Shown here in pieces: positions 9,917 through 54,786 of a stretch of DNA of 64,000 nt; position 1 is the first letter of the stretch; every line of letters begins with the position of its first letter. The notes beneath the pieces were generated by a model. It had not been told where the DNA came from and did not search any database. It was given only the letters and a program-made list of their open reading frames with translations. The stretch covers positions 2,542,001-2,606,000 of the forward strand of contig NC_003282.8 in NCBI RefSeq assembly GCF_000002985.6, written 5' to 3'. The DNA comes from Caenorhabditis elegans (Eukaryota > Nematoda > Chromadorea > Rhabditida > Rhabditidae). The position numbers and the translations under genes are program-made.

Positions 9917-12900
9917 ATGATACGTAAGTTGATGCTCCGATGTTCCGGCGGCGTGTGTTGTGAGCGAGTAATTGGGCTTCCATGTGATGAGAGCGGTGCC
10001 GGCGCCGGCGCCTCCGCCGGTCTTCGCAGTCGCCGCTCGCCGCTGTTGCGCGCAATAATGTGAAAGGTGGTCATTTGGCAGCGGTCGACACAATTGGAGC
10101 ACTATGCCTACGGTGCGAATGGCTGTGTTAGACCGCCGGCGGAGGCGCCTCACCGGAGCCCATATGGAAGTCCTACAAGAAATGGAAAATCGATAATTTC
10201 GGCGTTTTTAATAACGCTCTAATATCTCGCCGGAATTGTTGTTAGATACCAGGAAGCGCGAAAGTTTCGGTTTAACTGCAAAAATAACGGTTAAAAATCA
10301 ATAAACCAGTTATCGAATTTTCGGCTGATATTCCGCTAGGCTGCTATTATTTAAATGCTCCGATATTCCGCCGGGGAGCAAGAAATGAAAAATCGATAAT
10401 TTCAGGAATTTAAAACAAGTCTCTGATACTTTTCGCTTGTAGTTTAAAACGTGGTAATTCGAATTTCAAGTCTCATTTATCGATTTTTCTTCATTGAAAA
10501 TAGGAAGTTATCGATTTTTTTAAAAGTAATTTTCCAACTTTGCATTCTTAGTGCATTTTTAATAGCATAAACTTTAAAAAAATTATAAAAATGTACGAGT
10601 TAGTTTTAAAAATTTGATGTACAACTAGCGAAAAATGCTCAGCGAAAAATGCAATTTTTCACAGATCAATTTAATTAAGTTTCTTTTGCAGGTGGTACTG
10701 AAAAATGCCTTATCATAATGATAATATTGATAATGGCATTCACATCAATTATCAATCCTTTGGAAGCGAGTGATGACGTGGATGTTCAATCCGATGATTC
10801 TGACTATCAATTCAATCGATTTGTTAATCCGAATTTTGTTTCTAATAGAGGACTGAGAAAAAGGAGAAAAGGTTCAAACCAAGGTAAGTATGAAAAGCGA
10901 GACCTTTTACCTGTTTTCTGCCTTTTGACGTGAATTAACTAAGGCTACCACGTGGGAGCGGCGCGGTGTCGGCGCATCACCGGCGGTCTTGGCAGGCGTT
11001 GTGCGCAACGTAGTGAGAAAGGTAGTTATTTGGAAGCGGCCGACACGTTCCGGGTCCCACGCCGCACTATACTTGCGGATACATTGCGGCGTTTGTGGCG
11101 CCGTGAGGCTGTTCGAGGTGCCTCACCTACCGGCGAAGGTGCCTCGCCGGCGCCGGAATGGAAGCCCTAGAGAGAAAGGAAAAAATTAGAAATTTGTAAA
11201 TTTAATTAGAAATTTTTTATTTTCTCATTTCTCTCAATTTGTTGAAAATATCATTTGAAAATTAAAAAATATATCGCGTTAGTTTGGAGGGCCCCTTGCG
11301 GTCAGGCAGGCAGAGTTTTTAACGCCTACATAAACCGTAATGTACAGCAAGTGAGCAAGTGACTGACATCATGTAGATCTAAAATTTTTTTCTACGGTTA
11401 ACTTTTTTGACGTCGTTGATCTCCACAAAAATGTGGTTGCGGAAAAATTCTAAATGTATCTAATTTCAGACAACCAAAAAACGTCGTGTGATTCCGGAAA
11501 GTATGAGAATTGCAGAAAGTTGAAACTCAGAAAATCAACATTTTAAGAATACATTTTCAGTTTTCGTTCCATATTCGAAAATAGAAACGGATTATTGCAA
11601 GAAAAACCTCACCGATCAGAGATGCCCAGGTTGGTTACAAAGCTATTAAAAATTAAATGTTTTCAAAAAAACAAAAATAGTTGTTTTATTACTAAGAACC
11701 TAAAAATCGATAATTCTTAAAAAAGGTCAATATTGTTCTTTTCAGGAACTAAAGAGAACTATGGATGCAAGAAAATTAAAGATCTTAACTGTCACTCAAG
11801 TTGGTGTTTTTTCCACTTGCAAACTGTTCAGCACTTAATTTTCAGAGCTTTCCGAACAAGATTCTGAAGACAGATGTAACAGTTCTGTACTAGATCAACG
11901 GTGTCCAGGTGAGCGCCGATTTTTCATAAATCAATGAAGAGATTAATAACTTTCAGGCACTTCTTGGTACTGCACGGTTTCGGTCAACACAACTAACGAA
12001 TTATACAATAAAGCATGTGATGGAGTACTTAAATTGGATGGTTTGTATTTATTTTGATTGCCGAGGTCCAAAAAAAATCTTTTCGATTTTGTTTTTGAAA
12101 GATCAAAAAATCGAAAAAAAAAATCGAAAATAATATTTCGACAGTACCCCTGTGTAGGATGCAGATACTTCTTCCCATGCACCAATTTTAGATTTTAAAC
12201 AAGAAGATCTGGAGAAGCTATGGTTCTTAAAAATTAATGTATTTTATAGGTGAAAAGTATTGCTACAACTTGAAAAATGGTGCTTGCCAGAAGCGTGAGT
12301 GAATGTATATACAATTTCGAGAAACATCGTTTTATTTTTAAGCTATTTCATCAACAAGGGAGGATAAAGCTTTCTGTAAAGAAAATCCTAACGATTTGCG
12401 ATGCTATTCATTGAAAAACGGTGAGTGAAATTCATAATATTTTCGACATTTGATTAATCTGTAAAAATGGTAAACTTCCAGAAAAGCGATAACTTTTGCG
12501 CAGCCGCCGGATTATTTTAATTTTATTTATTTCTAAGATACTATTTTATAAAGCTGAAAAAACGCATCTACAAAGATGCGTTTTTTCTAAAAAAAACATC
12601 TCTGCTGTGCTCACAGTTCTGCGCCTTATAATGGGATTATTCAAGTAGTGTCGCGAAATTTCGCAAAATGTATTTCAATATGAGTACATTTAAAATCGAG
12701 AATATTAATTTTCGAAAAACTAGCCCAAAGGATACTTTTTTCCAGGATTCATGTCTGTCTTTCCAAATTTGGCGTTTTGCACGTGGCTTCGTGATTTTGG
12801 AAATCATTGGCCGATTGAATGCTCCTTCAAACAAGAAGGTTTGCAAATTTGTTTTCTAATTAATATATATCTGGGCACATTTTCACGTTTACGTCGCTTT

Positions 12901-15106
12901 TTAAAACCGCCGTTAAAAAATAATCGATAAATTAAAAATTTCACAGGTAAACTTGGACAAGGATGCTTTGAGGATAATCATAAAGACTGCAGCTCTGGTT
13001 AGAAATTTGTTTAGCATTATTAAATTAAAATACAACATTTTCCAGTTCTTTCAATAAAAGAAACCAAATAGTTGTGTAAAGGAAACCCGAATGGATGGGA
13101 TTGTCGATGTCCTGGTTTGTGCATTCATGGTCTTAATAGTCTGAAATGAGACCGACTTTCAGGAAGCACTTCTCCCACTTGTCCAAAAAATGCTACCGCG
13201 GTTGCATCTGGTTAGTTTTGATAATCTGAATTATCGATTTTTCATTAAACAAATTCAGTGAAAAAAATCTGAAAAAATCTTTAAAAGTTGATAACTTCCA
13301 AGTTTTTTTGAAATTTTTAATGGAAAACAGATTTTGAAATTCAACCAATTTTATGGAAACTGCCGATTTTTCGGGATTTTTTGAAAAAACCGGTCAATTC
13401 TGAACAAAGACAATAAATTTTGGAAAAATATGGACTTTTGAAACAAAAATTTCTACATTTATTGATTTTCCAGACTACCGATTTTTCAAGACTTATTGAT
13501 TTTTCGTAGTTTGTAGACATTGCTCCAAAATAAACACATTTTTTCAGTAACTACTACTGCAAGCACATCCACAACAAAGACAAGTCCAACGAAGCCGGTG
13601 AGCATTTTTTAAATCGTTTTTTTTTTCAAATTTTCAAGCTCTGAAGCTTTTTATTGAGAAATTTTGTTGTATTTTCGTTGCGAGACCTCAAGAAAATAAT
13701 ATTTCAGCCAACTCCAACATCTCGTCCGACATCTGCTCCCACGATTCCCCCACAGCCTTCCGCAAACTCTACCCGAGCACCGGATATTGGAAAGACCCTG
13801 AGTACCCAACCACCCAGAAGAACGCCTCAGCCACATCCAAAGCCACCACCACCACCGCCTCCACCAATACATGAAGCGCAACCAGAGGTTTCCGATTCAA
13901 ACAAACTCGGAACAACTGCAGCATCTAGGAAGGATTGTGAGGTGAGAAACTTCACATCAAAAAATCAATTATTTTCAAAACAAAATTTAAAATTTAAAAA
14001 CTTGATAAATCGATGAATTTTCATAAAAATACCGAAAAGTATATCTTGAAAAGTCGATAAATGTTTTGTAAAAATCGATAATTCTTGAGATAAACACGTT
14101 TTTTGAAGTGTTCAATGATTTCCTATAAAAATCAATAATTTTGCAATATTCCAGCAGTCCGATGAGAACTGCAAGACGCCCACGTCAGCTCCAGCAGAAT
14201 CATCTTCAACTGCAGGAATTATTGGAGGAGTTGTTGCTTTGGTGGTGGTATGTGCTCTTGCAGTGCTCTTCTTCTTCTGCTGGAGAAATCGTAAGAAGGA
14301 GAAGCCGAAGGTCGTCAGGAAAGCACCACTTAGAGCACCCATCCGTCCCAGACAGCCGCCGAATCAGAATATCAAGCCTATTACGGTATCGATTATTTAC
14401 TGAAAAAATCAATAATATTTCTAAATTATTGATTTTTCAGCCTGCGACTCCCACACCATCTCAGCCATCAGAGGAAAATAAGGCTGCATTGGCCAAGCAG
14501 ATTGAAATGATGAAAATCCGGGCCCACATGAGAAAGGCAGAAGAGCGGCACAAGTGGGACACGAGAACCTCTAAGTTCAAAAAAAAAGGAGCAATCTTTA
14601 TCCCGATGGAGCCGGACGTACGTTTATTTATTGTTTTAATATTGAAATTGAAGCCAGCATGTCGACGGATTTGATTTGAATATAATCATGACTAGTTCCC
14701 TCAATTTTGAGAATTATGGGTCTCACCGCGAAGGTTACAGTAGCTTTGCACGGAGAGACCTGTGATGTTTAAATTGAGCGGATTCTAGTCATTTTTATAC
14801 TTAAATTGAAACCACTGACTTGATATATTGAAATAATTTTCAAAAAATATCAATAAACTTTTGCAGATCTTGCCAGCTGGTCCACTCCCCAACGACATCG
14901 TTCTGAAGAAAGTGGAGTATGATCCATCCGGCAATGAGATGTTTGATATTGGATCCGATGTCGATGACATCGAGCTGGATGCGTCTTTTATTGTGGATCC
15001 AAGCACGATCACGGAGGACGAGCCAACGAAGAACACACCATCGACAAAGGGAACGGAGACAACAGAGGATACAAAGAAGCCGACGGGAGGAAATAAGAAG
15101 AAATAA
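9917..15106 (+). CDS. Gene A: Cys-rich cassette receptor-like protein, single-pass, with cytoplasmic tail
   Basis: Usable exons: 9917-9923, 10692-10883, 11561-11629, 11746-11799, 11846-11908, 11957-12040, 12250-12294, 12343-12420, 12947-12997, 13163-13210, 13548-13597, 13708-13941, 14155-14385, 14441-14617 and 14867-15106 (540 aa, in frame). An N-terminal signal/anchor helix (CLIIMIILIMAF) is followed by short Cys cassettes, several ending R-C-P-G, all in phase 1. Then come a Thr/Pro stalk (13548-13941), a transmembrane helix (IIGGVVALVVVCALAVLFFF) with a basic stop-transfer, and a tail with DIGSDVDDIELD. Two further cassettes are damaged. The one starting at 11470 has its donor GT changed to GA by comparison with C. 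The one at 13046-13114 has an in-frame TAG. Both are 1-1 phase and can be skipped. Expression and function are unknown, and a decaying gene is possible. Confidence 0.65.
9945..10165. repeat. GC-rich dispersed repeat in gene A intron 1
   Basis: A GC-rich island of about 220 bp in AT-rich surroundings (GGCGCCGGCGCCTCCGCC). It is related to the copies at 10,943-11,171 and 31,155-31,409 and to a fragment near 16,230-16,320. Shared marks are GGGCTTCCAT at the edges, GGCAGCGGTCGACAC and GCGCCGCACTAT-like blocks. The long ORFs across it on both strands come from base composition. Confidence 0.6.
10943..11171. repeat. GC-rich dispersed repeat in gene A intron 2
   Basis: Second copy of the same GC-rich element, just after the exon ending 10,883. 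It keeps GGAAGCGGCCGACACG and CGCCGCACTATA and ends with GGAAGCCCTAG. It is non-coding. Confidence 0.6.
12430..12940. other. Intron between gene A cassettes; no gene seen
   Basis: This roughly 500-bp stretch holds a block (AAGATGCGTTTTTTCTAAAA) that looks like a decayed insertion, and short ORFs on both strands. I see no splice-bounded coding exon. The flanking cassettes join in phase across it. Confidence 0.4.
14660..14820. repeat. Inverted-repeat element in the last intron of gene A
   Basis: A copy of the gggtcccgcc-type fold-back element, with TATAATCATGACTAG and its inverted partner near 14,790. It lies between the exons ending 14,617 and starting 14,867. Confidence 0.65.
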
Positions 15107-19619: not shown

Positions 19620-20160
19620 TTTTTCAAATTTGAGTTGAAAATATCAAAAATTAAATCAGTTCTCGATTGTGGAATCTTCGAAACGGGCGATTCTTAATGA
19701 CAAGTGAGTTTATTTTGCTACTTTTAAACAATGCTTCGATGCTCCGATGGGGGTGCTTTTTTTTCGATGCTCCTGCATTTCAAGAGTGTTGTTCAGCATC
19801 AGAAAGAGCGAAAAATAAAAAATTTTGAATGAAAGACAGCGAAGTTAATTTCACACAGCTTTATTGTTTTGATTGGTGGCGGTGTTTACCGAGAAGCAGC
19901 ATGTTTGAAGAAAACCATCAATTGAAAATGTTCAGGTACTGAATCAATGTCTACTATGCTTACGATATTCATATCAACAAAGGTCAACAGAGGATACAAA
20001 AGCGTCGAAGAGTGGAAACAAGAAAAATAAGAAGAGAGACTGATGGGATTGATTTGAGAACAGTCGTGAGATTTGAATAAAACTAACTGGTATCTTACAA
20101 TTATTGCATTCGATCAATAAACGATTCAATTAAAATCCAAGTTTTTGGTTTTACGCACAC
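19620..20160 (+). repeat. Family first-exon/3'-end segment, plus orientation
   Basis: Carries AGTTCTCGATTGTGGAATC, an ATGACAA|GTGAGT first exon at about 19,698-19,704, then a short 3'-end block (AACAGAGGATACAAAAGCG...) ending in the shared AATAAA context near 20,120. The middle of the gene is absent, as in the other remnants. Confidence 0.5.
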
Positions 20161-22487
20161 AGTTTGCAGAAATGGATAGTTTTCAGAAAATCAAGGAAAA
20201 CAGTACAATTTTTAGCGATGAAAATCGATATTTTCTTTTGAAATTTCATTTAAAAAAATTTAATTTTACCGTGAATTCCTGCCACGCAATGTGTTGTTTT
20301 TCAAATTTGATTTGAAAATATCAAAAATTTGATTAGTTCTCGATTCTGGATTCTTCGAAACGAATGATTCATGATGACACGTAAGTTTATTTTTCTACTT
20401 TCAAACCATGCTCTGAGGTTCCGATGAGGGTGCTCTTTCCGATGCTCCTGCATGTCCAGAACGTTGTTTAGCATTAGAAAGAGCGGGAATTCGAAATTTT
20501 GAGTGAGAAATTGCAAATTATTGATTTTTTGTTCAAAAAAGCTCAAATCAATCCTATGTTTATGTTGAATTTGTCTTTCAGGGTTGACCATCAACGAAGG
20601 GAACAGAAACAACGGAGGATGCAAAGGAGTCGCAGGAAGGAAATAAGAAGAATAAGAAGAGAGACTGATGGAATTGATTTGAAAATATTCGTGAGATCTT
20701 AATGAGAATAACTGGTATCTTACAATTTTCACATTCGATTTAATAAACGATTTTATCGAAAAGTTATTTTGATTTTTGTTCACATTGAATAACATTTTTC
20801 TAAAATCGAAAACTTCTAGCAAAGTAGATATTTTCCCTGAAAATGGTACTAAAGTGGAAACGAATCTGTTGATATTTTTTCAAATTTTTATTTCATTAGG
20901 GGCATAATGCTCTCATGTGCTCTCTACGAATAGTCGTTTTGTGATGCATCGCGATGGCACCCTGTTTATTGAGCTTACTGAGACATTAAGTGCACATCAC
21001 GGGAGTGCGGCAAATCTCAAAATTTGAAGAGGTCGGCAAATTCGGAAAATTGGGCATATTTGCCGCCCCTGGACGAAAGCTTGCTATGTGCCAAGTGAAA
21101 GATATATGTTGCATTACTAGAATGTCCAAATATCTTGCCGCTAAGCGGTATAAAGTTGCCCATGTATTGTGCAATCTATATCTGTAACTTGGCACATATC
21201 GACATACATGTTATCCACCTTTTCACTGCCGCCCAACTTCCAGATTATTGAAAAAAATTATCGATTTTTTTTTGCAATTCTTTCTGAAATCAAAACCTTT
21301 GTATGGGTAGAGGTAATAGGCAGTGAGTTTAATGAAATTATTAAATTCCAAATTCAGAAATAGCTGATTCTTTTCAATTTCAGATGATTCAACATCTTTC
21401 CAAAGTTCCGAAAATGCTTACAAAAATTCATTTGAGCGGCGTAAAAAAATTGCCGAAAATGTTCTAAAAAATGCCAAATATCGTCGAAAGTTCACAAAAT
21501 GTGTCTAAAGTTTCCGAAGACGCTGAAGGTTATGAAGGTTATTGAAATTGTCGGTAACAGTCAAGTTTGTCGAAAAAGTTTAAAATAAATAGTTGGAACA
21601 TCTGAGAGCAACCGACTTTTGCCGGAATGGGCTGGCTGCATCCATAAAGCTTTTAAGTTTAGTTTCAAAATATCAAACAAAAGTTTTTGGCGTTTTTAAA
21701 GCCCTAATCAATAATATTATTGAAATCAATATTTACAAAAAAACCAACAAATAAATAATTAAAATAGTTAGATAAAATTAATCCTCTTTCATTGAACTCC
21801 TTCGTATCCTCCGTCTCTTCCTTTGCTCCACCAGTCGAGTCAACCCTGAAAGACAAATTCAATATAAACATAGGATTGATTTGAGCTTTTTTGAACAAAA
21901 GCCAATAATTTGCAATTTCTCACTCAAAATTTCGAATTCCCGCTCTTTCTAATGCTAAACAACGTTCTGGACATGCAGGAGCATCGAAAAGAGCACCCTC
22001 ATCGGAAGTTCCGATTCGGAACCTCAGAGCATGGTTTGAAAGTAGCAAAATAAACTTACGTGTCATCATAAATCGTTCGTTTTGAAGAATTCAGAATCGA
22101 GAACTAATCAAATTTTTGATATTTTCAAATCAAATTTGGAAAAACAACACATTGCGCGGCAGGAGTTCACGGTAAAATGTAATTTTTTTCGAATGAAATT
22201 TCAAAAGAAAATATCGATTTTCATCGCTAAAAGTTGTACTGTTTTCCTTGATTTTCTGAAAACTATCCATTTCTGCAAACTGTGTGCGTAAAACCAAAAC
22301 CTTGGATTTTAATAGAATCGTTTATTGATCGAATTTAATAATTGTAAGATACCAGTTAGTTTTATTCAAATCTCACGACTGTTCTCAAATCAATCCCATC
22401 AGTCTCTCTTCTTATTCTTTTTATTTCCACCCTTCGACGTTTTTGTATCCTCTGTTGACCTTTGTTGATATGAATATCGTAAGCATA
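19955..22487. repeat. Diverged inverted repeat (arms about 19,955-20,585 and 21,845-22,487)
   Basis: The left arm and the reverse complement of the right arm align for about 630 bp (TATGCTTACGATATTCATAT to the GTCTTTCAGGGTTGA block), with scattered differences and small indels. Each arm contains an ATGATGACAC|GTAAGT first-exon copy (about 20,370 and, inverted, 22,065). The arms are clearly older than the perfect inverted duplication at 24.1-28.8 kb. The spacer holds the 20,840-21,000 transposon fragment and no gene. Confidence 0.6.
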
Positions 22488-23840: not shown

Positions 23841-26367
23841 CTAGTAAGCAGTAAAAATGACAAATGCGGAGACAATTCCAATTGACAGCGAGATGATCGA
23901 AGACTGATGACTTTGAAGAGAAGTTTGTTCCACCGGAGCTGACGTGGCCACATCCAATTTTGAATTCGATTTCTGAAAACAGAAAGTTCATATTGATTAA
24001 AATACTACATTAAGAATGCAAAAAATCTAAATTGTGCGCAATCATAATTTTTGTAACTAAACGTTGACTCTGAATTTATGAAATAAAATTGATCCGTCAG
24101 AGCTTAGCAGACTAATCTAAAGCTGTTTGAAAATCACCTTCATCGAAGTAGTAGGGAATGTAGTTGTCACCGTGGTTGTGGGTTCAGGAGTCGTTGCTGT
24201 AAATTGAGTTTTTAACAATTTGAATGAAATTGAAGATTCAAAACATACTGCAATCGGCATCAACAGGCTTGTCACAACCTTCACCAGAGAGTCCTAAAAA
24301 AAGTGAATGATTTATCGAATTGTGAAAAATTAAAACAAACTAGGACATCTCAAGTCTCTAAACTCAAATTCATCAATGCACAGGTATTTTGCTTCTGCCT
24401 CAGTCATTGCTTAAAAAATATTTTTGGAATAAAAAGTTAGAAAATTGTCATACTCGTATTGTGATTGCAATCATGGTCGGTGTCTTTGTAACACCCTGCA
24501 CCAATATCCCCTGCAATTATTTTTTTCAATAATAGAATCACATTGTCAATTTTTGGCAGAATAACACACCACTTTTTACAACGCATGCCCAAATCCATTT
24601 CTTTATTTCAGCGTGATGCAACTTGCAGAGTGCGCGGTTTGGATAAATAGGCAAGAATCCTGAAAAGTATATTTTATCGACTTTTCAGAAATTAGAAAAT
24701 TTGTTGAATACCAAGACGCATTGAGTAACATTGGCAATCATTGGTATACTTTTTGCAGAAATCCGTGCCATATGATGCTGTCGGTGGGATAGCTGAAAAT
24801 TGAAAGCTTTATTCAAAGTACAGAAAAAAACTATTAAACTTACGTTTTACACACGCAGGATCACCTGCTGCATAACACACTTCTGGATCTGAAAAATCAA
24901 TAAGTTCTAAAGAGCATGCTGCCTGAGAATTAAAATATTTCAGAGATAGATTCAGATGGATTGACATTAGAAATAATCACTGTACAACGACGAAAATTTT
25001 CTGAAATCCTGATAGAAGCATAGGCTTAAAACAGTTATTTTCAAAATCAGCAGGATAAATTATCGATTTTCCTGATAACAAACCATGTGTTGTATTGACA
25101 TTATTGCACAAGTTCCTATCGGCATGCTTTGGTGCGATAGTACAGTACCAGATCGTTCCTAAAAATATAGACGTATATTATGAAATGAATATAATGAAAC
25201 GACTGATTTCCTACCCGGACACCTGTGATCTTGCTTAAAATCCTGACACTTTTGATTAATTTCCTCCTGTTTGAGTGCTGAAATTATAAATTAGGGAATA
25301 TGTTCAAGAATAACTTACGGAAATGACAGTCCTTATCAGTGATTTTGAGACAATTATCACCTGGTTCACTCCCTGAAAAAAATTGATTATTCTTTAAAAA
25401 TTGTCGAGTTCTCATTTGAAAATTATAGAATTTATTCAATATAAATACAAAAACTGAGAGATCTTATTCATTTTTTTGTAAAAAAAACATTTTCTGAAAA
25501 CGATCAGTTTTTGAAATCAATGTGTACCTGGGCAACGCGGGTCTTTTTTGTTCGCATCCATATTACAATATGAAGTTCCATCTGATGAATCGGCTTCGAA
25601 AACTGAAAGGTAATTACATTTTTGTGTGAGTTTCTTGTATTGCTCCAACTTACCACACTTTTTATTTACTGATGGATCGCATGGTTGTTTTTTGGTAGAT
25701 GTGTCTAAAATTTTATAGTAATTTATTATGTGATTTCTATTCAAAAGTATTAACAGCTAGTCTGATTGACAATGTTTTATACGATTTTTGAAAAGTTAAA
25801 AAATCTCCGTTGTCCCCTAATTCCTATTTGAATCAATTGGGTTTGTGCGATGGTGGTGAAATATTTTTGAAAATATTTACCTTTACATGTACCGAGGGGG
25901 CGCCACCTTTGCTAAACTATACAGCTTTACAGCTTTTGCTATACAGCTCTCAGGCAAACGATACCACGCAGGCGCGCGCTCCCATCAAGCAGGAGATGGC
26001 GGGCTCTGGCATGGTGGGAACGCGCGCCTGTGTGGTTTCGTTTGCCTGCGATAATGAGGCTGTATAGCAAAAGTGACGCGCCTTTTCGAAAGGCGCCCGT
26101 AAGGCGCCGGGAATTTTCTCCCACCGAGCGTTTAAAATTGACAGAATTTGATTTAGGTACTTGCTTTACGCTCACAACTTAAAAGTGGTCTAATGTTTTA
26201 TAAAAATATGACAACGCTAATTGCTTTTATCACATTTTTCGAAACGAACCTTGACGTTTTCCGATGCTTTTGAATCCAATATTCGAATCCTTAAACTGAA
26301 AATCAGTGCTCTTGGTACCAAAATCAACATTTTCATGAACCGTCAAAGCGTCCAAATTTTGAGGCAT
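23841..26367 (-). CDS. Gene C-L: Cys-rich cassette protein with GPI-anchor-like C-terminus (337 aa)
   Basis: Transcript-order exons: 26367-26250, 25704-25654, 25602-25528, 25372-25319, 25277-25215, 25158-25084, 24888-24844, 24792-24712, 24659-24570, 24510-24454, 24409-24341, 24293-24249, 24196-24138 and 23972-23841. All join in frame to TAG at 23843. Cassettes (CDPSVNKKCG, DPRCPG, DHRCPG, DLRCP) are phase 1-1 and identical to C-R within the inverted duplication. The last exon lies outside it: Ser-rich (TSLQSHQSSIISLS), then a hydrophobic end (IGIVSAFVIFTAY) with no cytoplasmic tail, as in GPI signals. The N-terminus in this frame (MPQNLDALTV) has no signal peptide. An overlapping frame from ATG near 26,335 is hydrophobic (MLILVPRALIFSL) but one base out of phase. 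Start therefore uncertain. Confidence 0.6.
25931..26070. mobile_element. Fold-back insertion in C-L intron 1 (left-arm copy)
   Basis: A hairpin whose arms begin CTATACAGC and contain CAGGCAAACGA and GCGCGCGTTCCC-like GC-rich parts. It is embedded in a larger inserted block of about 400 bp. It is the mirror copy of 26,866-27,005, so it inserted before the inverted duplication. Reading frames across it on both strands are artefacts of the palindrome. Confidence 0.6.
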
Positions 26368-26613
26368 TGCGGTTGTTAACCTTAAAAACCTTTAAAAACC
26401 TTGGTTAAAAAATAGAAGATTCAATCAGTTCTTGATTTTGATTTTTTGAAAGTGACGGGTTCCCTTCGAAATTTCAACTCAGTCGTGTGATTAAGTAAGT
26501 TTTCAATTTAACAAACTAGATTTATCGTGGTCTTCGATATTCAGAGAGAATTTTCTAAATTTTTTTCTGCACTTTTATGTTATTGACTGAAATTTTGCAG
26601 GACTCATAGAAAA
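26368..26613. promoter_or_regulatory. Shared divergent promoter region of C-L and C-R
   Basis: These 246 bp lie between the proposed starts of two head-to-head copies. They include TCAATCAGTTCTTGATTTTG and a GTAAGT at about 26,495, matching the gene A first-exon region. Here the expected ATG of the tiny first exon reads GTG, so the ancestral first exon appears lost on the C-R side. Confidence 0.4.
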
Positions 26614-29600
26614 ATGGCTCATCATTGCACTGATTTTCAGTTTAAGGATTCGAATATTGGATTCAAAAGCATCGGAAAACGTCAAGGTTCGTTTCGAAAA
26701 ATGTGATAAAAGCAATTAGCGTTGTCATATTTTTATAAAACATTAGACCACTTTTAAGTTGTGAGCGTAAAGCAAGTACCTAAATCAAATTCTGTCAATT
26801 TTAAACGCTCGGTGGGAGAAAATTCCCGGCGCCTTACGGGCGCCTTTCGAAAAGGCGCGTCACTTTTGCTATACAGCCTCATTATCGCAGGCAAACGAAA
26901 CCACACAGGCGCGCGTTCCCACCATGCCAGAGCCCGCCATCTCCTGCTTGATGGGAGCGCGCGCCTGCGTGGTATCGTTTGCCTGAGAGCTGTATAGCAA
27001 AAGCTGTAAAGCTGTATAGTTTAGCAAAGGTGGCGCCCCCTCGGTACATGTAAAGGTAAATATTTTCAAAAATATTTCACCACCATCGCACAAACCCAAT
27101 TGATTCAAATAGGAATTAGGGGACAACGGAGATTTTTTAACTTTTCAAAAATCGTATAAAACATTGTCAATCAGACTAGCTGTTAATACTTTTGAATAGA
27201 AATCACATAATAAATTACTATAAAATTTTAGACACATCTACCAAAAAACAACCATGCGATCCATCAGTAAATAAAAAGTGTGGTAAGTTGGAGCAATACA
27301 AGAAACTCACACAAAAATGTAATTACCTTTCAGTTTTCGAAGCCGATTCATCAGATGGAACTTCATATTGTAATATGGATGCGAACAAAAAAGACCCGCG
27401 TTGCCCAGGTACACATTGATTTCAAAAACTGATCGTTTTCAGAAAATGTTTTTTTTACAAAAAAATGAATAAGATCTCTCAGTTTTTGTATTTATATTGA
27501 ATAAATTCTATAATTTTCAAATGAGAACTCGACAATTTTTAAAGAATAATCAATTTTTTTCAGGGAGTGAACCAGGTGATAATTGTCTCAAAATCACTGA
27601 TAAGGACTGTCATTTCCGTAAGTTATTCTTGAACATATTCCCTAATTTATAATTTCAGCACTCAAACAGGAGGAAATTAATCAAAAGTGTCAGGATTTTA
27701 AGCAAGATCACAGGTGTCCGGGTAGGAAATCAGTCGTTTCATTATATTCATTTCATAATATACGTCTATATTTTTAGGAACGATCTGGTACTGTACTATC
27801 GCACCAAAGCATGCCGATAGGAACTTGTGCAATAATGTCAATACAACACATGGTTTGTTATCAGGAAAATCGATAATTTATCCTGCTGATTTTGAAAATA
27901 ACTGTTTTAAGCCTATGCTTCTATCAGGATTTCAGAAAATTTTCGTCGTTGTACAGTGATTATTTCTAATGTCAATCCATCTGAATCTATCTCTGAAATA
28001 TTTTAATTCTCAGGCAGCATGCTCTTTAGAACTTATTGATTTTTCAGATCCAGAAGTGTGTTATGCAGCAGGTGATCCTGCGTGTGTAAAACGTAAGTTT
28101 AATAGTTTTTTTCTGTACTTTGAATAAAGCTTTCAATTTTCAGCTATCCCACCGACAGCATCATATGGCACGGATTTCTGCAAAAAGTATACCAATGATT
28201 GCCAATGTTACTCAATGCGTCTTGGTATTCAACAAATTTTCTAATTTCTGAAAAGTCGATAAAATATACTTTTCAGGATTCTTGCCTATTTATCCAAACC
28301 GCGCACTCTGCAAGTTGCATCACGCTGAAATAAAGAAATGGATTTGGGCATGCGTTGTAAAAAGTGGTGTGTTATTCTGCCAAAAATTGACAATGTGATT
28401 CTATTATTGAAAAAAATAATTGCAGGGGATATTGGTGCAGGGTGTTACAAAGACACCGACCATGATTGCAATCACAATACGAGTATGACAATTTTCTAAC
28501 TTTTTATTCCAAAAATATTTTTTAAGCAATGACTGAGGCAGAAGCAAAATACCTGTGCATTGATGAATTTGAGTTTAGAGACTTGAGATGTCCTAGTTTG
28601 TTTTAATTTTTCACAATTCGATAAATCATTCACTTTTTTTAGGACTCTCTGGTGAAGGTTGTGACAAGCCTGTTGATGCCGATTGCAGTATGTTTTGAAT
28701 CTTCAATTTCATTCAAATTGTTAAAAACTCAATTTACAGCAACGACTCCTGAACCCACAACCACGGTGACAACTACATTCCCTACTACTTCGATGAAGGT
28801 ATAAAAATCAGCGAAGCGCAACAATATCAGTATTTTCCTGTCCTATTTGCTTCAAGTTTTTAACATTTTCTCTTTTTTTCTCACATCTAAAACAACCGGG
28901 TTTTTGCTGCGAGACATAAAAACTTAAATTTTTCAAAAACGAGGACATCTTTCAGAGGAGACCGCCACCACCACCGCCTCCACCAATACATGAAGCGCGA
29001 CCAGAGGTTGGCAATTCGAATCAACTCAGAACAACTGCAGCATCTAGGAAGGATTTTGAGGTGAGAAACTTTAGGAAAATGCATGTATTTTTCCGAGAAA
29101 ATCAATAATTTACAAAACAAAATTTAAAATTTAAAAACTTGATAAATCGATGAATTTTCATGAAAATACCGAAAAGTATATCTTGAAAAGTCGATAAAGT
29201 TTTGTAAAAATCGATAATTCTTGAGATAAACACGTTATTTGAAGTGTCCAATGATTTCCTATAAAAATCAATAATTTTGCAATATTCCAGCAGACGTCCA
29301 CGTCAGCTCCAGCAACGTCAACATCATCAACAGCAGGAATCATTGGAGGAGTTGCTGCTTTGGTGGTGGTATGTGCTCTTGCAGTGCTCTTCTTCTTCTG
29401 CTGGAGAAATCGTAAGAAGGAGAAGCCGAATGTCATCAGGAAAGCACCACTTAGAGCACCTATCCGTCCCAGACAGTCTCCGAATCCGAATAGCAAGCCT
29501 ACTACGGTATGGGTTGGGAGATATTTTAAGCACAAAAAAAAACTAAAACTATGATTTCAGCATCCATCTGAAAAGAGTGAAAAGGGCGGGGCAACATCTG

Positions 29601-30031
29601 CACCTCCAAAGAACACAGAAATGAGGGAGAAGCTTCTGGAGACTCAAGCCAACCTTCAGAAGATCCGGGCCCACATGAAGAAGAACGCTCTACGGCACAA
29701 ATCGGACACTAGAACATCGAAGTTCAAAAAGATGGGAGCAATCTTCATTCTCATGGAGCCTGATGTAAGTTTTTGAGGCTCACGCAAAGAGCCTTTGGCT
29801 AGCCTACCTCATATTTTCAGAGACAACTGAAAAAAAATCATGTATGTTTTGCAGATTCTCACGCCGCCGGTACTTCCCAACGTTGCCCTCGACAAAGTGT
29901 TTTATGATCCGACATACAACGAGATGTACGATATTGGAACCGATGTTGATGACATCGAGCTGGATGCGTCCTTTATGGTGGATCCAAGCACAATCACGGA
30001 GGACGAGGCAACGAAGAACACACCATCGTAA
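26614..30031 (+). CDS. Gene C-R: Cys-rich cassette receptor-like protein, single-pass, with cytoplasmic tail (512 aa)
   Basis: Exons 26614-26686, 27232-27282, 27334-27408, 27564-27617, 27659-27721, 27778-27852, 28048-28092, 28144-28224, 28277-28366, 28426-28482, 28527-28595, 28643-28687, 28740-28798, 28956-29060, 29291-29506, 29561-29764 and 29855-30031 (TAA) join in frame. The ectodomain is identical to C-L up to 28798. Beyond it the gene adds a Pro-rich exon (PPPPPPPPIHEA), a transmembrane exon (IIGGVAALVVVCALAVLFFF) and a basic/coiled tail ending with DIGTDVDDIELD. The first coding exon in this frame (MAHHCTDFQFK) has no signal peptide. The overlapping frame LIEKWLIIALIFSL is hydrophobic but out of phase by one. 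The tail is shorter than in gene A because of a TAA where A reads ACA. Downstream A-like tail sequence persists to about 30,090. Confidence 0.65.
26866..27005. mobile_element. Fold-back insertion in C-R intron 1 (right-arm copy)
   Basis: Mirror of the left-arm hairpin. Arms begin and end with GCTATACAGC-type sequence around a GC-rich stem (GGCGCGCGTTCCCACC against GGGAGCGCGCGCC). There is no coding content. Confidence 0.6.
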
Positions 30032-30059
30032 AAGGGAACGGAGACAACAGAGGATACAA

Positions 30060-31170
30060 AGAAGCCGACGGGAGGAAATAAGAAGAAATAAGAAAAATTG
30101 ATGGGATTTGATTTGAGAACAGATTTTGAGAACGTCAGAACAGATTTTTGAGAACAATATTTTACTAGATTCCGATTTTTTTGGCTTTACACATACAGTT
30201 TGCAGCTTTTCAGAAAATCGATATATTTCAAGGAAATCAGTGCAATTTTAGCGAAAATTGAGAATTTCTTATAAAGTTTCATTTGAAAAACATTTTATTT
30301 TAAAGTGAACTCTTGCCACGCAATCTTTTTTTTTCAAATTTGATTTGAAAATATCAAAAATTGAATTAGTTCTCGATTCTGGAATCTTCGAAACGGGCGA
30401 TTCTTAATGACAAGTGAGTTTATTTTGCTACTTTGAAACGATGCTCCGAGGTTCCGATGGGGGTGCTCTTTTCGATGCTCCTGCATTTCAAGAGTGTTGT
30501 TTAGCATCAGAAAGAGCGGGAATTGGAAATTTTGAATGAAAGACCACGGAGTTATTGATTTTCTGTTCAAAAAAGTCCTAATCGATTCTATGTTTATGTT
30601 CAATTTGTCTTTCAGGGTTGACTGGAGTGGTGGAGCAAAGGAGGAGACGGCGGATGCGATGGAGCCAATGGAAAGAAGATTAATTTTAATGAACTATTTT
30701 AATTATATATTTGTTGGTTAAAAAAAATATTATTGATTAGGGCTTTAAAAACGCCAAAAACTTTTGTTTGATATTTTGAAACTAAACTTAAAACTTTATG
30801 GATGCAACGAGCTCATTCCGGCAAAAGTCGGTTGCTCTCAGATGTTCCAACTATTTATTTTAAACTTTTTCGACAAACTTGACTGTTACCGACAATTTCA
30901 ATAATCTTCAGCAATTCAGCATTTTTGAACGAATTTGTTAATTTTGTCGTCTTCGGAAGTTTATGACATTTTTTTCCAACTTTTGAAAACTCTCCGCAAT
31001 CGGCGGCAATTGTCAACAGCTTCAGACATTTTTCTCCATTTCCCGCAACTTTCGGCAGTTTCAAGCAGTTTTCGACAGCTCATAAAAGTTTTCGCTTATT
31101 CTGGAAATTTTTCGGCAACTTCGCACATTTCCTCAGCTTTCTATTTTTAGTTTTTCCATAAGTAACGGGA
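30060..31170 (+). repeat. Family 3'-end/first-exon segment downstream of C-R
   Basis: Collinear with 15,060-16,240. It has the tail end (GAGGATACAAAGAAGCCGAC), the AGTTCTCGATTCTGGAATC block, an ATGACAA|GTGAGT first exon at 30,407-30,413, the GTCTTTCAG acceptor near 30,615, and GATTAGGGCTTTAAAAACGC. Read from the acceptor in family phase, the last exon is altered and gives a basic 24-residue product, so it is a broken mini-gene. Confidence 0.5.
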
Positions 31171-31879: not shown

Positions 31880-34060
31880 TAATATAAAAGTTATCAGGGA
31901 ACCGAAAAATCATATGAAGTGCTTTTTTCTTTTAAAAAACTATTCAGCATAGTCATATTTATCAAAAAAATTATTTTTTTAAAGATTATTTTTAAGAAAT
32001 TCAGAAAATGCATCTAAAGCTTCTTTTCAAAAATTCAAAAGTACCGGAAAATCATATAAAGTGCTTCTTTTTTCTTTTATAAAACTGTTTAGCATAGTCG
32101 AATATACCAGAAAATACCAAACAAAGTATGCTATCTTGTACGAAAGATTATTTTAAAAAATTCAGAAAATGCATCTAAAGCGGTTTTTTTTCAAAAATTC
32201 AAAAGTACCGGAAAATCATAAAAAGTGCTTCTTTTTTCTTTTATAACACTGTTTAGCATAGTCAAATATACCAGAAAATACCAAACAAAGTATGCTATCT
32301 TGTACGAAAGATTATTTTAAAAAATTCAGAAAATGCATCTAAAGCGGTTTTTTTTCAAAAATTCAAAAGTACCGGAAAATCATATAAAGTACTTCTTTTT
32401 TCTTTTATAAAACTGTTTAGCATAGTCGAATATACCAGAAAATACCAAACAAAGTATGCTATCTTGTACGAAAGATTATTTTAAAAAATTCAGAAAATGC
32501 ATCTAAAGCGGTTTTTTTTCAAAAATTCAAAAGTACCGGAAAATCATAAAAAGTGCTTCTTTTTTCTTTTATAACACTGTTTAGCATAGTCAAATATACC
32601 AGAAAATACCAAACAAAGTATGCTATCTTGTACGAAAGATTATTTTAAAAAATTCAGAAAATGCATCTAAAGCGGTTTTTTTTCAAAAATTCAAAAGTAC
32701 CGGAAAATCATATAAAGTGCTTCTTTTTTCTTTTATAAAACTGTTTAGCATAGTCGAATATACCAGAAAATACCAAACAAAGTATGCTATCTTGTACGAA
32801 AGATTATTTTAAAAAATTCAGAAAATGCATCTAAAGCGGTTTTTTTTCAAAAATTCAAAAGTACCGGAAAATCATAAAAAGTGCTTCTTTTTTCTTTTAT
32901 AACACTGTTTAGCATAGTCAAATATACCAGAAAATACCAAACAAAGTATGCTATCTTGTACGAAAGATTATTTTAAAAAATTCAGAAAATGCATCTAAAG
33001 CGGTTTTTTTTCAAAAATTCAAAAGTACCGGAAAATCATAAAAAGTGCTTCTTTTTTCTTTTATAACACTGTTTAGCATAGTCAAATATACCAGAAAATA
33101 CCAAACAAAGTATGCTATCTTGTACGAAAGATTATTTTAAAAAATTCAGAAAATGCATCTAAAGCGGTTTTTTTTCAAAAATTCAAAAGTACCGGAAAAT
33201 CATAAAAAGTGCTTCTTTTTTCTTTTATAACACTGTTTAGCATAGTCAAATATACCAGAAAATACCAAACAAAGTATGCTATCTTGTACGAAAGATTATT
33301 TTAAAAAATTCAGAAAATGCATCTAAAGCGGTTTTTTTTCAAAAATTCAAAAGTACCGGAAAATCATATGAAGTGCTTCTTTTTTCTTTTATAAAACTGT
33401 TTAGCATAGTCGAATATACCAGAAAATACCAAACAAAGTATGCTATCTTGTACGAAAGATTATTTTAAAAAATTCAGAAAATGCATCTAAAGCGGTTTTT
33501 TTTCAAAAATTCAAAAGTACCGGAAAATCATAAAAAGTGCTTCTTTTTTCTTTTATAACACTGTTTAGCATAGTCAAATATACCAGAAAATACCAAACAA
33601 AGTATGCTATCTTGTACGGAAGATTATTTTAAAAAATTCAGAAAATGCATCTAAAGCGGTTTTTTTTCAAAAATTCAAAAGTACCGGAAAATCATATGAA
33701 GTGCTTCTTTTTTCTTTTATAAAACTGTTTAGCATAGTCGAATATACCAGAAAATACCAAACAAAGTATGCTATCTTGTACGAAAGATTATTTTAAAAAA
33801 TTCAGAAAATGCATCTAAAGCGGTTTTTTTTCAAAAATTCAAAAGTACCGGAAAATCATAAAAAGTGCTTCTTTTTTCTTTTATAACACTGTTTAGCATA
33901 GTCAAATATACCAGAAAATACCAAACAAAGTATGCTATCTTGTACGGAAGATTATTTTAAAAAATTCAGAAAATGCATCTAAAGCGGTTTTTTTTCAAAA
34001 ATTCAAAAGTACCGGAAAATCATATGAAGTGCTTCTTTTTTCTTTTATAAAACTGTTTAG
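31880..34060. repeat. 164-bp tandem satellite with two alternating monomer types
   Basis: GTACCGGAAAATCAT recurs at 32041, 32205, 32369, 32533 and so on every 164 bp to 34009, giving about 13 monomers. Type 1 reads CATATAAAGTGC/AAAACTGTTT/GTCGAAT and type 2 reads CATAAAAAGTGC/AACACTGTTT/GTCAAAT. They mostly alternate as 328-bp dimers, with a run of type 2 at 32861-33352. Late units carry CATATGAAG and GTACGGAAG variants in register, so a higher-order unit is spreading. A diverged edge monomer lies at about 31,880-32,040. Non-coding. Confidence 0.9.
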
Positions 34061-50394: not shown

Positions 50395-53300
50395 ATGGAA
50401 GGTTAGTTTTGTTCAGGTTTTGTTCAGGTTTTTACAGGGTCTTGCAGCGAAAATCTGAAATTTTTTACGGAAAATGGCGTTTTCCACCAGAAAATCGATT
50501 TTCAAACGGCACTCCGTTATAAAGATAGCGCGCGTTGTTTAGTAATGTGATGCGCTTTGGCGGCAATTCAAATTTTGAATTTAATAATTTATCGTTGTTT
50601 TTTTTTTTGCAGTTCCGATCAAACATCGAGTGTTTCAAACGTTCATCCTCTTGATGGTCCTTGTTCAATTTTCAATTGGCTTGGGCAATTTTGCACGGGA
50701 TATTCGTAATTTTGGCGGAGCCGGATCAGGAAACAAAACTTGCGATCCAAGCAGAGACAATGATTGTGGTAATTACAGCATACATGAAGACAAAGAAGGT
50801 GCCAGGTTGTACACAATGTTAATGTTATTAAAAATGCCATCTCAAATTGTAGACACCTGTCAGATAATGTATTTGTATAAAACGTGTTTAAATCCCACAT
50901 GTCCATGTCACGTGGATATGGCTGTGCGGGAACCGGCAACCAAGTTGCCGGTTGCCGATTTTTTTGGGTTTGGCAACTTCGGCAACTGCCGATATCAATG
51001 TCAAACATTTTGAAGCTCAGAAAGAAACATTCAGAATGTCTGAAAAACGCTATAATTTCACTCTAAACGAAAAAAAAACGCTTAAAATTATAATTGCAAC
51101 AAAAAATTTTGAAACCTGGTTGCCGGTTGCCGAAATGTTGCCGAAGTTTCGGCAACCAAAAGTTGTCGGCTGCCGAAAATTTTAGGGTTCGGCAACTTCG
51201 GCAATTGCCGGTTGTCGAAAATCTCGGTTGCCGCACAGCCGTACTTGCCTATGTCTCCCAATTTAAAGGGGGTATTCAAGTACTGTCGGAATATTAAAAA
51301 GTGTAAATAAGTTTCTTAAACTTTGATTTTACAGACTCTCCAGCCACTGTACCCTCTTCTACAACAAAAGGTAAAAAATCGATAATGTTTCACATAAATA
51401 AATAAATTTCTTTCAGCTCCAAGATATCGTAATAATACTACCGAGAGTCCTCCACCTACACCACCATCATCACCACCAGCCCCAGAAGGTATATACTCAT
51501 TTTTGCAAAACAACTTTATCCCGAGAAAAATCAATAATTTACCGGTTTTTCAGGATGTCACAACGAAGGGAATTCAGCATGTGATACTGGTGAGTTCTAG
51601 ATTACGGACAAGTTTGCAGACTGAAAAGTCTAGGATTTCTCAAAATTCAATATCATATTTAATTATTGATTTTCTTAAAAGTATAACATTGGAAATTGAG
51701 GCTCTGACAAATACGAGCAATTGTAAACCGAACTCAAAAGACTTGAGATGTCCAGGTTTGTTGTGATTCCTCAAGAAAATCGATTCTTTATTGATTTTTC
51801 TCAATTCCAGGTAAACCCTTATTCTGCAAATTCAAGAATTTTGATGCAGCAGAATGCAAGTGTTCAGAACCACGCGCTAAAGTCTGTAAAGAAGGTATGT
51901 CCTTCAAGCCCCAGGATCAGGCGGCAATTTGAATTTATATGAATTTATTGCAGATTTTGAGTTTGATGCTCAGAGAGAGTACTGTACGAAATCGGTCAAA
52001 CATCCAAAAGACTTGAGATGCGAAGGTTTGTTGTGAAATGTCTAATGATTGTTGATTGATTTTTTTCAATTTCAGGCGAACTCTTATTCTTCAAATTCCA
52101 CTGGAACACAACGGCTTGTCACTGTATAAACCACCAGCGTGACAGAGTTTGTGCACATGGTGTGTTGGTTCTTTTGCAAGAGGGACTTTTTAATTTTTTT
52201 TTTCAGACTTCCAGTCGGATGAAGATAAGAAATATCAATGCAATAAAAAGCCTACAGACTTGAGATGCAAAAAACAGAAACTCTACTGCAAATTTCATTT
52301 GGATGACAAGGATTGTCGGTGTTTTGAGTCGAATCAGAAGGCTTGTAAAAAAGGTGTGTCGGGATTTTATTCAAGCAACGATACTTTGAAATTTCCCTCT
52401 TCTATTTGGCGGCAATTTAAGTTATACTTTAAAAAAATATTGCAGATTTTCAATCGCCAGATGAGAGGGATCTTCAATGTAATTCATCACAGACTACACC
52501 ACAGCGCCCGAAAGACTTGAGATGCAAAGGTTTGTTAAGCTCTAACTGTAGGAAAAAAAAATCGATAATTCATTGATTGCAAGGGAAAAACTGTATAGCA
52601 AATTCGAACGTGAACCGAGAGATCGCGTGGATGAATGCAAATGTGATAATCTGGAAGATGATCGTGTTGCTTGTAAAAAATATCCCGAGTTGGACGAGTC
52701 TTTCATTAATGATTTCTGTCTCAAAAACGAGAATGATCAGAGATGTCCAGGTTTGTTTATTCTAGTTTAAAATCCATAGATTATTTCCCTTTGCAGGAGG
52801 TTCGATCTATTGCGACAACAGCACGCATTTTCGTAACAGTAGTTGCTTGTGCACAACAGGGAATGAGACAGTTTGTGATAAAGGTATTCTTTTTCAAAGT
52901 TTCATAAGCCCTGCTATAGAGAACTTGTTTTGCTCTTGATAAGAGCTGAGAGCGGCCGAATAGTTAAATAAATTACAGTCCTTCCCTTCAATCAAAAGGC
53001 AGCCGTGGTACTAATGGAACGCAAAAGAATGCATCTCTTGAAGATGAACGATGTCCAGGTTTATTTTTATTCTGAAAAACTTTGAAAATTAAATATCGAT
53101 TTATTACAGGAGGATCCATATATTGTAAAAATAACTCTTCATCTCCTGACTGTTTAACCACGATTGCTCCATCTGGTTAGTTTTAGAGGAATCAAAAAAT
53201 GTCATAGAAAATTCTACATTTAGAAGACAACTCCACCACTACTGCATCCTCGACTGAAGCCACCACATTCTCGACAACTACTTCCGACGAGAAGACCTCA

Positions 53301-54786
53301 ACGACAGAGAAGGTTTGTGGGTTGAACATCGATTGGGTGCCGTCGCTAAGAGTACTGTAGCTTCGTGGGCAAAGTTCGAATTGAACAGTCCAACAATGTT
53401 CAAACTGGACAGGCTCTGGGCCAAGTTCTGATCAACTCTAGATTTATGCAAAATTTTGTAGTAACAGAAGAATTTCTCAACGGAGCGCACATTCAGACAC
53501 GAAAAATTTGATTTTCCAAATCTAAACCACTACTTAACTTTTTGAAATTTCAGACAAATCCAGGACCAGCACCAGGACCCGGACCAGGACCCTTTGCCTC
53601 CTCGCCATCTCCAAAGGATGTCACAGCGGAAGCACCGACTCCTCCTAAGACTACGAAGACTACACAAACGCCAGGTCGAACACTGCCGCCGGAAGAAAGG
53701 CAAGAAGAAACTGATCCTCTTGCGAATGGCCCATCGAACATCGAATCTGACGAGGTGTACAGCAATATGACTTGTTCGGTTAGTATGAAATTTTAATTCC
53801 GCTTTTATTTGAATCTAATCATGACTAGGTTTCGTTCACTTTGAAAATTTTCGGGTCTCGCCACGAAACTAGAGCGGTGAGGCCCAACTTTCTTCAAATT
53901 ACAGAGGAATTAGTCATGATTATACTTAAATCGAAGCTCTTGACGAGCTGAATTCAAAATGGTATGTATCAAAAATGTAAAAAGCTTCATAATTGCAGAT
54001 GAACGTCGACATTTGTGATGAGAATTACTGTAAGAAACTTGCTGCTGGAAGGAAGAAGGCTGACAGTGGTGATGGTGGTGTTCAGTTGTATCTCTGGATT
54101 GGTCTAGCTTTTCTCCTGGCAATAAATGTTGGACTTTTTGCTAAAAACTACAAGAAGTACTTCAAGAAGAAGCGAGCTGCTCCGGTGACTCCAGCTGCTC
54201 CGAAACCTGGTGCAAAACTTCGAGAGGCTCAGGCAAAGAAGGAAATTCTAACGAAGAAAAAGGTATGGATTTAGGAAATATTTTAAGCACAAAAAAAAAC
54301 AAATCGGACACTAGAACATCGAAGTTCAAAAAGATGGGACCAATCTTCATTCCCATGGAGCCTGATGTAAGTTTTTGAGGCTCACGCAAAGAGCCTTTGG
54401 CTAGCCTACCTCATATTTTCAGAGACAACTGAAAAAAAATCATGTATGTTTTGCAGATTCTGCAGGCGCCGGTACTTCCCAACGTTGTTCTGGACAAAGT
54501 GTTTTATGATCCGACCTACTATGAGATGTATGACATTGGTTCCGACGTGGATGACATCGAGTTGGATACTTCTTTCATGGTCGATCCAAGCACGATGACG
54601 GAGGAAGAGGCCACCAAAAAGAGTAAGAAAAGCAAGAAGAGCTCAAAGAGCAAGAAGAGCACCGACAGCAAGAAGGAAAATAAGGATCAGAAGGAAGAGC
54701 CGAAGAAGGGAGAAGATGAGAAGACTAAGGAAGGATCCAAGCAGAAGAGTATCGAGAAGGAGAAGAGCGTGGAGAAAGAAAAATAG
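50395..54786 (+). CDS. Gene D: Cys-rich cassette receptor-like protein with Lys-rich tail (612 aa if damaged cassettes are skipped)
   Basis: Exons 50395-50401, 50613-50768, 51335-51370, 51417-51488, 51554-51589, 51811-51894, 51954-52025, 52076-52159, 52207-52353, 52446-52529, 52797-52883, 53110-53175, 53224-53312, 53554-53778, 53999-54262 and 54457-54786 form one frame. A signal peptide (FQTFILLMVLVQFSIGLG) is followed by CDPSRDNDCG, phase 1-1 Cys cassettes (DLRCEG, DLRCKG), a Thr stalk, a Pro/Gly-rich exon, a transmembrane helix (LYLWIGLAFLLAINVGLFA) and a tail with DIGSDVDDIELD and Lys/Ser/Glu repeats. Three RCPG-type cassettes (ending 51752, 52750 and 53058) are one base out of phase, and a tail exon ending 54366 has lost its acceptor. 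All can be skipped in frame. Poly(A) signal AATAAA at 54817. Confidence 0.65.
50930..51240. repeat. GGCAACTTCGGCAACTGCCG repeat in gene D intron 2
   Basis: A fold-back of the CGGCAA family. The left (about 50,932-51,010) and right (about 51,117-51,235) halves are inverted copies built from GCAACTTCGGCAACTGCCG units. It abuts a possible decayed Cys exon at about 50,854-50,926. Confidence 0.6.
53805..53950. repeat. Inverted-repeat element in a gene D intron
   Basis: Single copy of the gggtcccgcc-type fold-back family, with AATCATGACTAGG and its inverted partner ATTAGTCATGATTATACTT, between the Pro-rich and transmembrane exons. Confidence 0.6.
54300..54366 (+). pseudogene. Truncated tail exon of gene D lacking its acceptor
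   Basis: The stretch starting AAATCGGACACTAGAACATC and ending in GGAGCCTGAT|GTAAGT matches the last third of C-R exon 29561-29764. In D it directly follows intron-like CACAAAAAAAAAAC, so a deletion fused intron to exon and removed about 160 bp including the 3' splice site. Confidence 0.7.

Follow-up and report, generated by a model that had tools for sequence, protein, structure and literature searches.

A stretch of 64,000 nucleotides (nt) of Caenorhabditis elegans contig NC_003282.8 (positions 2,542,001 to 2,606,000, forward strand; hereafter the window, in whose own numbering coordinates are given) carries a head-to-head pair of paralogous genes, here called C-L and C-R, that belongs to a small family of cysteine-rich, single-pass membrane proteins in C. 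elegans. The two genes have the same ectodomain, encoded within a perfect inverted repeat, and different 3' ends, and we consider it probable that the pair represents a young or recently homogenised ectodomain joined, at the edge of the exon encoding the stalk, to two 3' ends that evolved separately. The preliminary description of this DNA had already recognised two head-to-head genes with an identical middle and different 3' ends, which both a repeat test and gene models bear out; it had also taken these ends for two different membrane anchors, an isoform choice fixed as two genes, and it is this latter view that the comparisons below argue against.

A perfect inverted repeat that ends at the stalk exon

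The repeat consists of the following parts, the arms having been delimited by an inverted-repeat search and a string test:

24136..26309, minus strand: left arm, with the shared exons of C-L
26627..28800, plus strand: right arm, with the shared exons of C-R
26310..26626, no strand assigned: 317-nt spacer, containing both 5' ends, whose sole match in a genome search is itself

Compared base by base, the left arm is the exact reverse complement of the right one over 2174 nt (100%), as had been suspected from its appearance, and the gap between the arms measures 317 nt; in the gene models two paralogues are transcribed outward from this short spacer. Genome searches, which covered 100,286,401 bases in 7 contigs, placed the first 1001 nt of the arm (the portion searched) at two positions, both inside the window. 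At the outer edge, where the breakpoints had been put a base or two past the stalk-exon donor, identity on either side runs on for 2 nt after the stalk exon; because these 2 nt are the donor GT, identity effectively stops at the exon edge. At 2.7e-9 mutations per site and generation, the absence of any difference over 2174 sites implies arms that are less than about 2.6e5 generations old or have been homogenised since (95% bound, at that rate), and the shared part is accordingly best regarded, on sequence identity, as young or recently homogenised. The arms also contain, at 26790-27080 and in mirror copy on the left, a strong palindromic element within the first intron (RNA fold z-score -10.05), for which only a partial match was reported outside the arms, on the same contig at 16.84 Mb.

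Predicted gene models were obtained by joining exons through splice signals, scored with approximate weight tables:

23841..26336, minus strand: gene C-L, 14 exons, 328 residues; exon 1 requires the weak donor GTTTCG
26601..30031, plus strand: gene C-R, 17 exons, of which 13 match C-L and four form the 3' end
28956-29060, 29291-29506, 29561-29764 and 29855-30031, plus strand: the four 3' exons of C-R

In both models exons 2 to 13 are wholly common, while exon 1 is common only within the arm, giving twelve wholly shared exons, one partly shared exon and different 3' ends; the short C-L exon (23972-23841) and the C-R module (28956-30031) lie where they had been proposed. Exons 2 to 12 are multiples of three, and once the exons are joined the frame is open in every one after the first; the stalk exon, of 59 nt, ends in phase 0, with which both 3' ends are compatible. 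The distance from the start codon of the C-L model (26336) to the first exon of C-R (26601) is 265 nt, a spacing that fits the shared promoter of about 250 bp suggested earlier, whose role as a promoter is putative.

Exon 1 is where the models are strained. The better donor, at 26686 (score 3.0), gives C-R a frame that begins MAHHCTDFQF and has no hydrophobic N-terminus, whereas the frame resembling a signal peptide requires the donor at 26690 (score -5.9) and in the C-R exon lacks an ATG; C-L does have an ATG in the signal-peptide frame, at 26336, yet depends on the same weak donor. With the better donor a signal peptide is in frame in neither gene, as far as the modelled exons go, and no middle exon between exons 1 and 2 that would restore the frame was found in 26720-27200 at the score limits used. 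Given this conflict between the signal-peptide frame and a good exon-1 donor, secretion of C-L or C-R is only putative.

The 3' ends of C-L and C-R

The features needed for comparing the ends are these:

10692..15106, plus strand: gene B, with ectodomain, transmembrane (TM) exon and tail (searches and gene model)
50654..54786, plus strand: gene D as modelled, a family member with the shared tail end (searches and gene model)
23841..23972, minus strand: C-L terminal exon, a truncated homologue of the family TM exon with a hydrophobic C-terminus, at best resembling a glycosylphosphatidylinositol (GPI) signal (gene model and register comparison)
21533..22457, minus strand: relic of the family last-exon end and 3' flank, downstream of C-L, 78.9% identical to C-R 30045-30910
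28956..29506, plus strand: C-R proline exon, intron and TM exon, 90, 97 and 94% identical to gene B
29561..29854, plus strand: C-R cytoplasmic exon 1 and the next intron, 95% identical to gene E and 100% to genes D and E, respectively
30032..30910, plus strand: C-R 3' flank, B-like again, 86-94% identical to B in three segments, one of them covered over 187/350 nt only
26601..26626, plus strand: start of C-R exon 1, within the spacer, agreeing in register with the first part of gene B exon 1 at 17/26 nt

Between the C-L terminal exon and the TM exon of gene B there is homology at an equal offset from the acceptor. One word of 13 nt, CCACGTCAGCTCC, is present three times in the window against an expectation of 0.02, once each in the C-L exon, the TM exon of B and that of C-R; it starts 25 nt inside the B and C-L exons and 7 nt inside that of C-R. 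When C-L is set in the register of B, the first 60 nt agree at 34 positions (none of 20000 codon shuffles being as good) and the whole exon at 56 of 132 (5 of 20000), with a longest run of 13 nt that 0/20000 shuffles equalled; sliding the register by 1 to 12 nt either way yields at most 45 matches. As this register was picked after the 13-mer had been seen, a fairer comparison takes in every AG site: among 9982 such sites in the window and four fetched loci, compared without gaps, the C-L acceptor ranks second after B itself, and the next site reaches 29/60 with a run of 5. At the protein level the C-L and B exons align with a score of 41, which 13 of 2000 split shuffles attained. Moreover, the C-L stop aligns with the first residue of the basic RNRKKEK of gene B, and the exon is therefore read as a tail-less family TM exon; on these register comparisons it would be a diverged relative of the B exon that has lost its cytoplasmic tail. 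Read in this way, the exon would be the family anchor minus its tail, and no isoform choice need be invoked. Genome searches are too insensitive to reveal this homology: with the C-L exon as protein only the exon itself was matched, and with exon plus flank as DNA the exon again found only itself, the five other short matches lying outside it. A unique terminal exon lacking another genomic source is hence not what we find, given the register homology with B. Downstream, the relic at 21533..22457 contains a match to the tail-end peptide at E = 0.005; its tie to C-L is uncertain, because family 3'-end fragments are dispersed over 15-22.5 kb in both orientations.

How the C-L product would be held at the membrane is less clear. 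The GPI-type anchor proposed for it agrees with an uncharged hydrophobic stretch running up to the stop (mean Kyte-Doolittle value 2.06 over the last 15 residues), a feature that is uncommon: of 1856 acceptor-to-stop frames in the window and the four loci, 456 have at least 28 residues, and an uncharged hydrophobic end is present in 3 of these, C-L included, that is, in 2 of the other 455. Against such an anchor, C-L fails a crude rule of our own making that asks for small residues at the omega and omega+2 sites, a rule that none of the 456 frames satisfies. Judged from its C-terminus, C-L is a possible GPI-type decoy.

The anchor and tail of C-R have a different composition. Identities of the segments, which exclude gaps, are 90% to gene B for the proline exon (99/105 nt aligned), 97% for the intron between the proline and TM exons (193/230 nt aligned) and 94% for the TM exon (215/216 nt aligned), and a gapped BLAST alignment of 28962-29510 to gene B gives 87.0%. 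Cytoplasmic exon 1, conversely, is 95% identical to gene E of locus L003 (203/204 nt aligned), and the intron after it is 100% identical to genes D and E (90/90 nt). In the last exon B, D and E tie at 85% each. By these segment identities the anchor and tail of C-R combine gene B with genes D/E in mosaic fashion, and each of the two 3' ends thus has a separate history, a further point against a fixed isoform choice. The C-R stop (30029-30031) lies 20 codons before that of gene B, and the DNA beyond it is still homologous. A signalling-type role had been suggested for C-R, and the one point in its favour is that the tail is common to B, D and E; this tail, like the C-L and C-R proteins as wholes and the parts of the B, D and E models submitted, gave no Pfam match at gathering score.

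At the 5' side the two genes also differ. Of the 26 nt of C-R exon 1 that lie in the spacer, 17 agree in register with the beginning of gene B exon 1 (1 of 20000 shuffles as good), whereas the corresponding 26 nt of C-L match at 6/26 and are not family-like; on this contrast C-R appears to retain the family 5' end and C-L does not. Unanchored alignment of the 5' ends to gene B is weaker, with 21 of 1000 shuffles as good for C-R and 150 of 1000 for C-L. For the part of exon 1 inside the arm the comparison with B is no more than suggestive: 187/2000 shuffles were as good for DNA and, for the peptide, 308/2000 in the canonical frame and 619/2000 in the other.

Origin of the pair and competing explanations

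Separate histories of outer domains and anchors point to ectopic gene conversion. On the reading that we prefer, the stalk-exon edge would be the place where the shared part meets two 3' ends that evolved separately within one family, and the border between stalk and anchor would be the point at which ectodomain and anchor uncouple. In C-L a TM exon that is old and diverged may have been kept; it would now end immediately behind the hydrophobic segment, with loss of the cytoplasmic tail. C-R may have had its tail patched from gene B and genes D/E. Two routes could lead to this state: a recent inverted copy of the C-R front may have been fused to an old resident 3' end, or a long conversion tract from C-R may have overwritten an older inverted paralogue. 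Conversion, whose agency and direction alike are presumed, is favoured by the switch at the stalk-exon edge, by the introns beyond it, which do not align, and by the mosaic C-R tail; tracts between C. elegans paralogues span 12-2958 bp (PMC3966223).

Several results weigh against this reading. Beyond the arms, the introns of C-L align with those of neither C-R nor B (between 533 and 938 of 1000 shuffles did as well), and for that reason the case for an old resident gene comes down to one exon and the relic, which, in view of the dispersed 3'-end fragments, may not be C-L's own. Neither the spacer halves (633/1000 shuffles as good) nor the 60 nt adjoining the arms on the spacer side (285/1000) show detectable old homology. 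At the protein level the C-L exon does not resemble the C-R TM exon significantly (score 30, 313/2000), and the latter, which is 18 nt shorter at its start, was missed by the ungapped scan of AG sites. Finally, conversion tracts are given an average of 117 bp and cluster at 50-200 nt, and conversion is suggested to be commoner in pairs of the same orientation (PMC3966223); by the tract lengths and orientation bias of that account, a single tract of more than 2 kb in inverted genes would be unusual.

A partial inverted duplication with recruitment, of the fog-2 type, whereby the C-R front was copied beside non-coding DNA that was exonised by chance, would agree with the failure of the C-L exon to match anything but itself in genome searches, with the C-L 5' end, which is not family-like, and with young C. 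elegans pairs being often structurally unequal (39% complete, 21% partial and 40% chimeric, n=290; PMC3449122). We regard it as unlikely, in that the C-L exon has a homologue, in register and phase, in gene B's TM exon and an uncharged hydrophobic C-terminus seldom arises in the other frames of at least 28 residues (the 2 of 455 given above). A split into decoy and receptor of one ancestral gene that had alternative GPI and TM 3' ends would account for two open, phase-compatible ends and has a precedent in the near-identical paralogues CD16B and CD16A, with GPI and TM anchors (PMC8183472). This is very improbable: the C-L exon is a TM-exon homologue instead of a separate alternative exon, the C-R module is B- and D/E-like, and the two 3' regions share one AT-rich stretch of about 50 nt, which, because it overlaps in C-L a repeat present on contig 3, is no relic of the other 3' module. 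Homology over whole DNA was rejected both for the C-L and C-R 3' regions, whose score of 38 equals the best of 200 shuffles (mean 26.8), and for the C-L 3' region and B, with a score of 36 against a best shuffle of 39.

Decay of the pair, which is compatible with the other readings, has a distinctly higher standing, although it too is doubtful. Here the exon-1 conflict would be genuine and neither gene would yield a secreted protein, as may be suspected from donor 26686, which lacks a hydrophobic N-terminus, from the frame of donor 26690, which lacks an ATG in the C-R exon, and from gene B, which carries an in-frame TAG in an ectodomain exon. On the other side stand the exons after exon 1, which are open in the joined models, those from 2 to 12 as multiples of three, and the circumstance that models and splice weights alike are author-made predictions; weak donors are, besides, usable in worms. 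That one arm was duplicated in silico is extremely improbable: short reads alone cannot place a perfect 2.2-kb repeat, but the flanks of the arms differ on both sides, the spacer is found once in the genome, and the size resembles that of a published locus (2207-bp arms, 126-bp spacer; PMC1803023).

The family, its surroundings and comparable loci

The 22 ectodomain matches among the best candidates scored in a genome search all lie in the repeat and the spacer edge, a looser search within the window had weak relatives in genes B and D among the matches listed, and the Protein Data Bank (PDB) gave no ectodomain relative up to E = 1. The TAG in gene B lies at 13069-13071 (position by eye), where the C arms have TAC; either this exon is skipped or gene B is decaying. 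A distant relative of the cytoplasmic tail occurs at locus L004, about 7044-7448, on contig 5 (best match E = 5.8e-7, modelled peptide DIGSDIDDIEM), and by this similarity suggests an older tail family. A second inverted repeat near the pair, 19955-20424 / 22016-22487, is 95% identical and largely composed of family 3'-end sequence. About 1 kb past the C-R 3' flank, positions 31981-34061 hold a 164-bp satellite of 12.7 copies with 97% matches, and 46746-49223 is an open frame of 825 codons, whose FADD motif we take to be reverse-transcriptase-like and which is presumably part of a non-LTR (non-long-terminal-repeat) element. We further assume Y69A2AR to be the clone name for the area. This word is absent from the main text of PMC1803023.

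The locus is a further case of a known kind, the divergent inverted-repeat pair, with an unusual switch point. C-L/C-R resemble F44E5.4/F44E5.5, a divergent pair with arms and spacer of the published size mentioned above and 99.7% identity, as head-to-head paralogues in a near-perfect inverted repeat, and in C. briggsae CBG13231/CBG13232 the first 297 nt are identical and the C-termini have diverged; gene conversion, as one mechanism, and selection on repeat structure are both discussed for such loci (PMC1803023). Unlike in these two pairs, the boundary in C-L/C-R falls at the stalk/anchor exon edge and separates a cysteine-rich domain from its anchors, and the spacer has 317 bp. At the hsp-16 locus of C. 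elegans, too, an inverted gene repeat is perfect and encloses a short unique spacer; there whole genes are repeated and no 3'-end exchange figures in the account given of it (PMC1803023, PMC3966223).

Partial duplication with recruitment is exemplified by fog-2/ftr-1, and a chimeric duplicate is defined as a derived paralogue to which two or more donor sequences contributed, one or more of these being genic, the 40% share of such duplicates being probably too high (PMC3449122). C-L, whose front is common with C-R and whose terminal exon is related to a family TM exon, is a candidate for this class. Both fog-2/ftr-1 and C-L/C-R are C. elegans paralogues with a shared front and a different 3' end, but the fog-2 end is described as without genomic match (PMC3449122), in contrast to the C-L terminal exon with its homology to a family TM exon. 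Matching ectodomains also characterise FCGR3A/FCGR3B, of which CD16B (FCGR3B) is GPI-anchored and unlikely to signal and CD16A (FCGR3A) is transmembrane (PMC8183472); anchoring was tested there, while for C-L/C-R it is predicted from sequence only, and the arrangement is that of an inverted repeat.

These findings provide a clean case, at the level of nucleotides, of an outer domain held in common whose history differs from that of its membrane anchor, the changeover falling at an exon edge. Provided that both products are made and secreted, C-L would present the C-R ectodomain without a tail, either GPI-linked or weakly anchored. It is conceivable, if rather improbable, that in this family ectodomains and anchors are continually recombined by conversion at the stalk exon; the pair would then carry one identical ectodomain on a tail-less and a tailed anchor, and a receptor and its built-in decoy would stay ligand-matched while tails are swapped with neighbours. 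Should the genes not be expressed, the locus would show well how repeats of this sort can lead gene models astray; should both be expressed, it could serve to test whether a receptor and its tail-less partner can be held to one ligand by conversion, and genotyping across wild strains should be easy.

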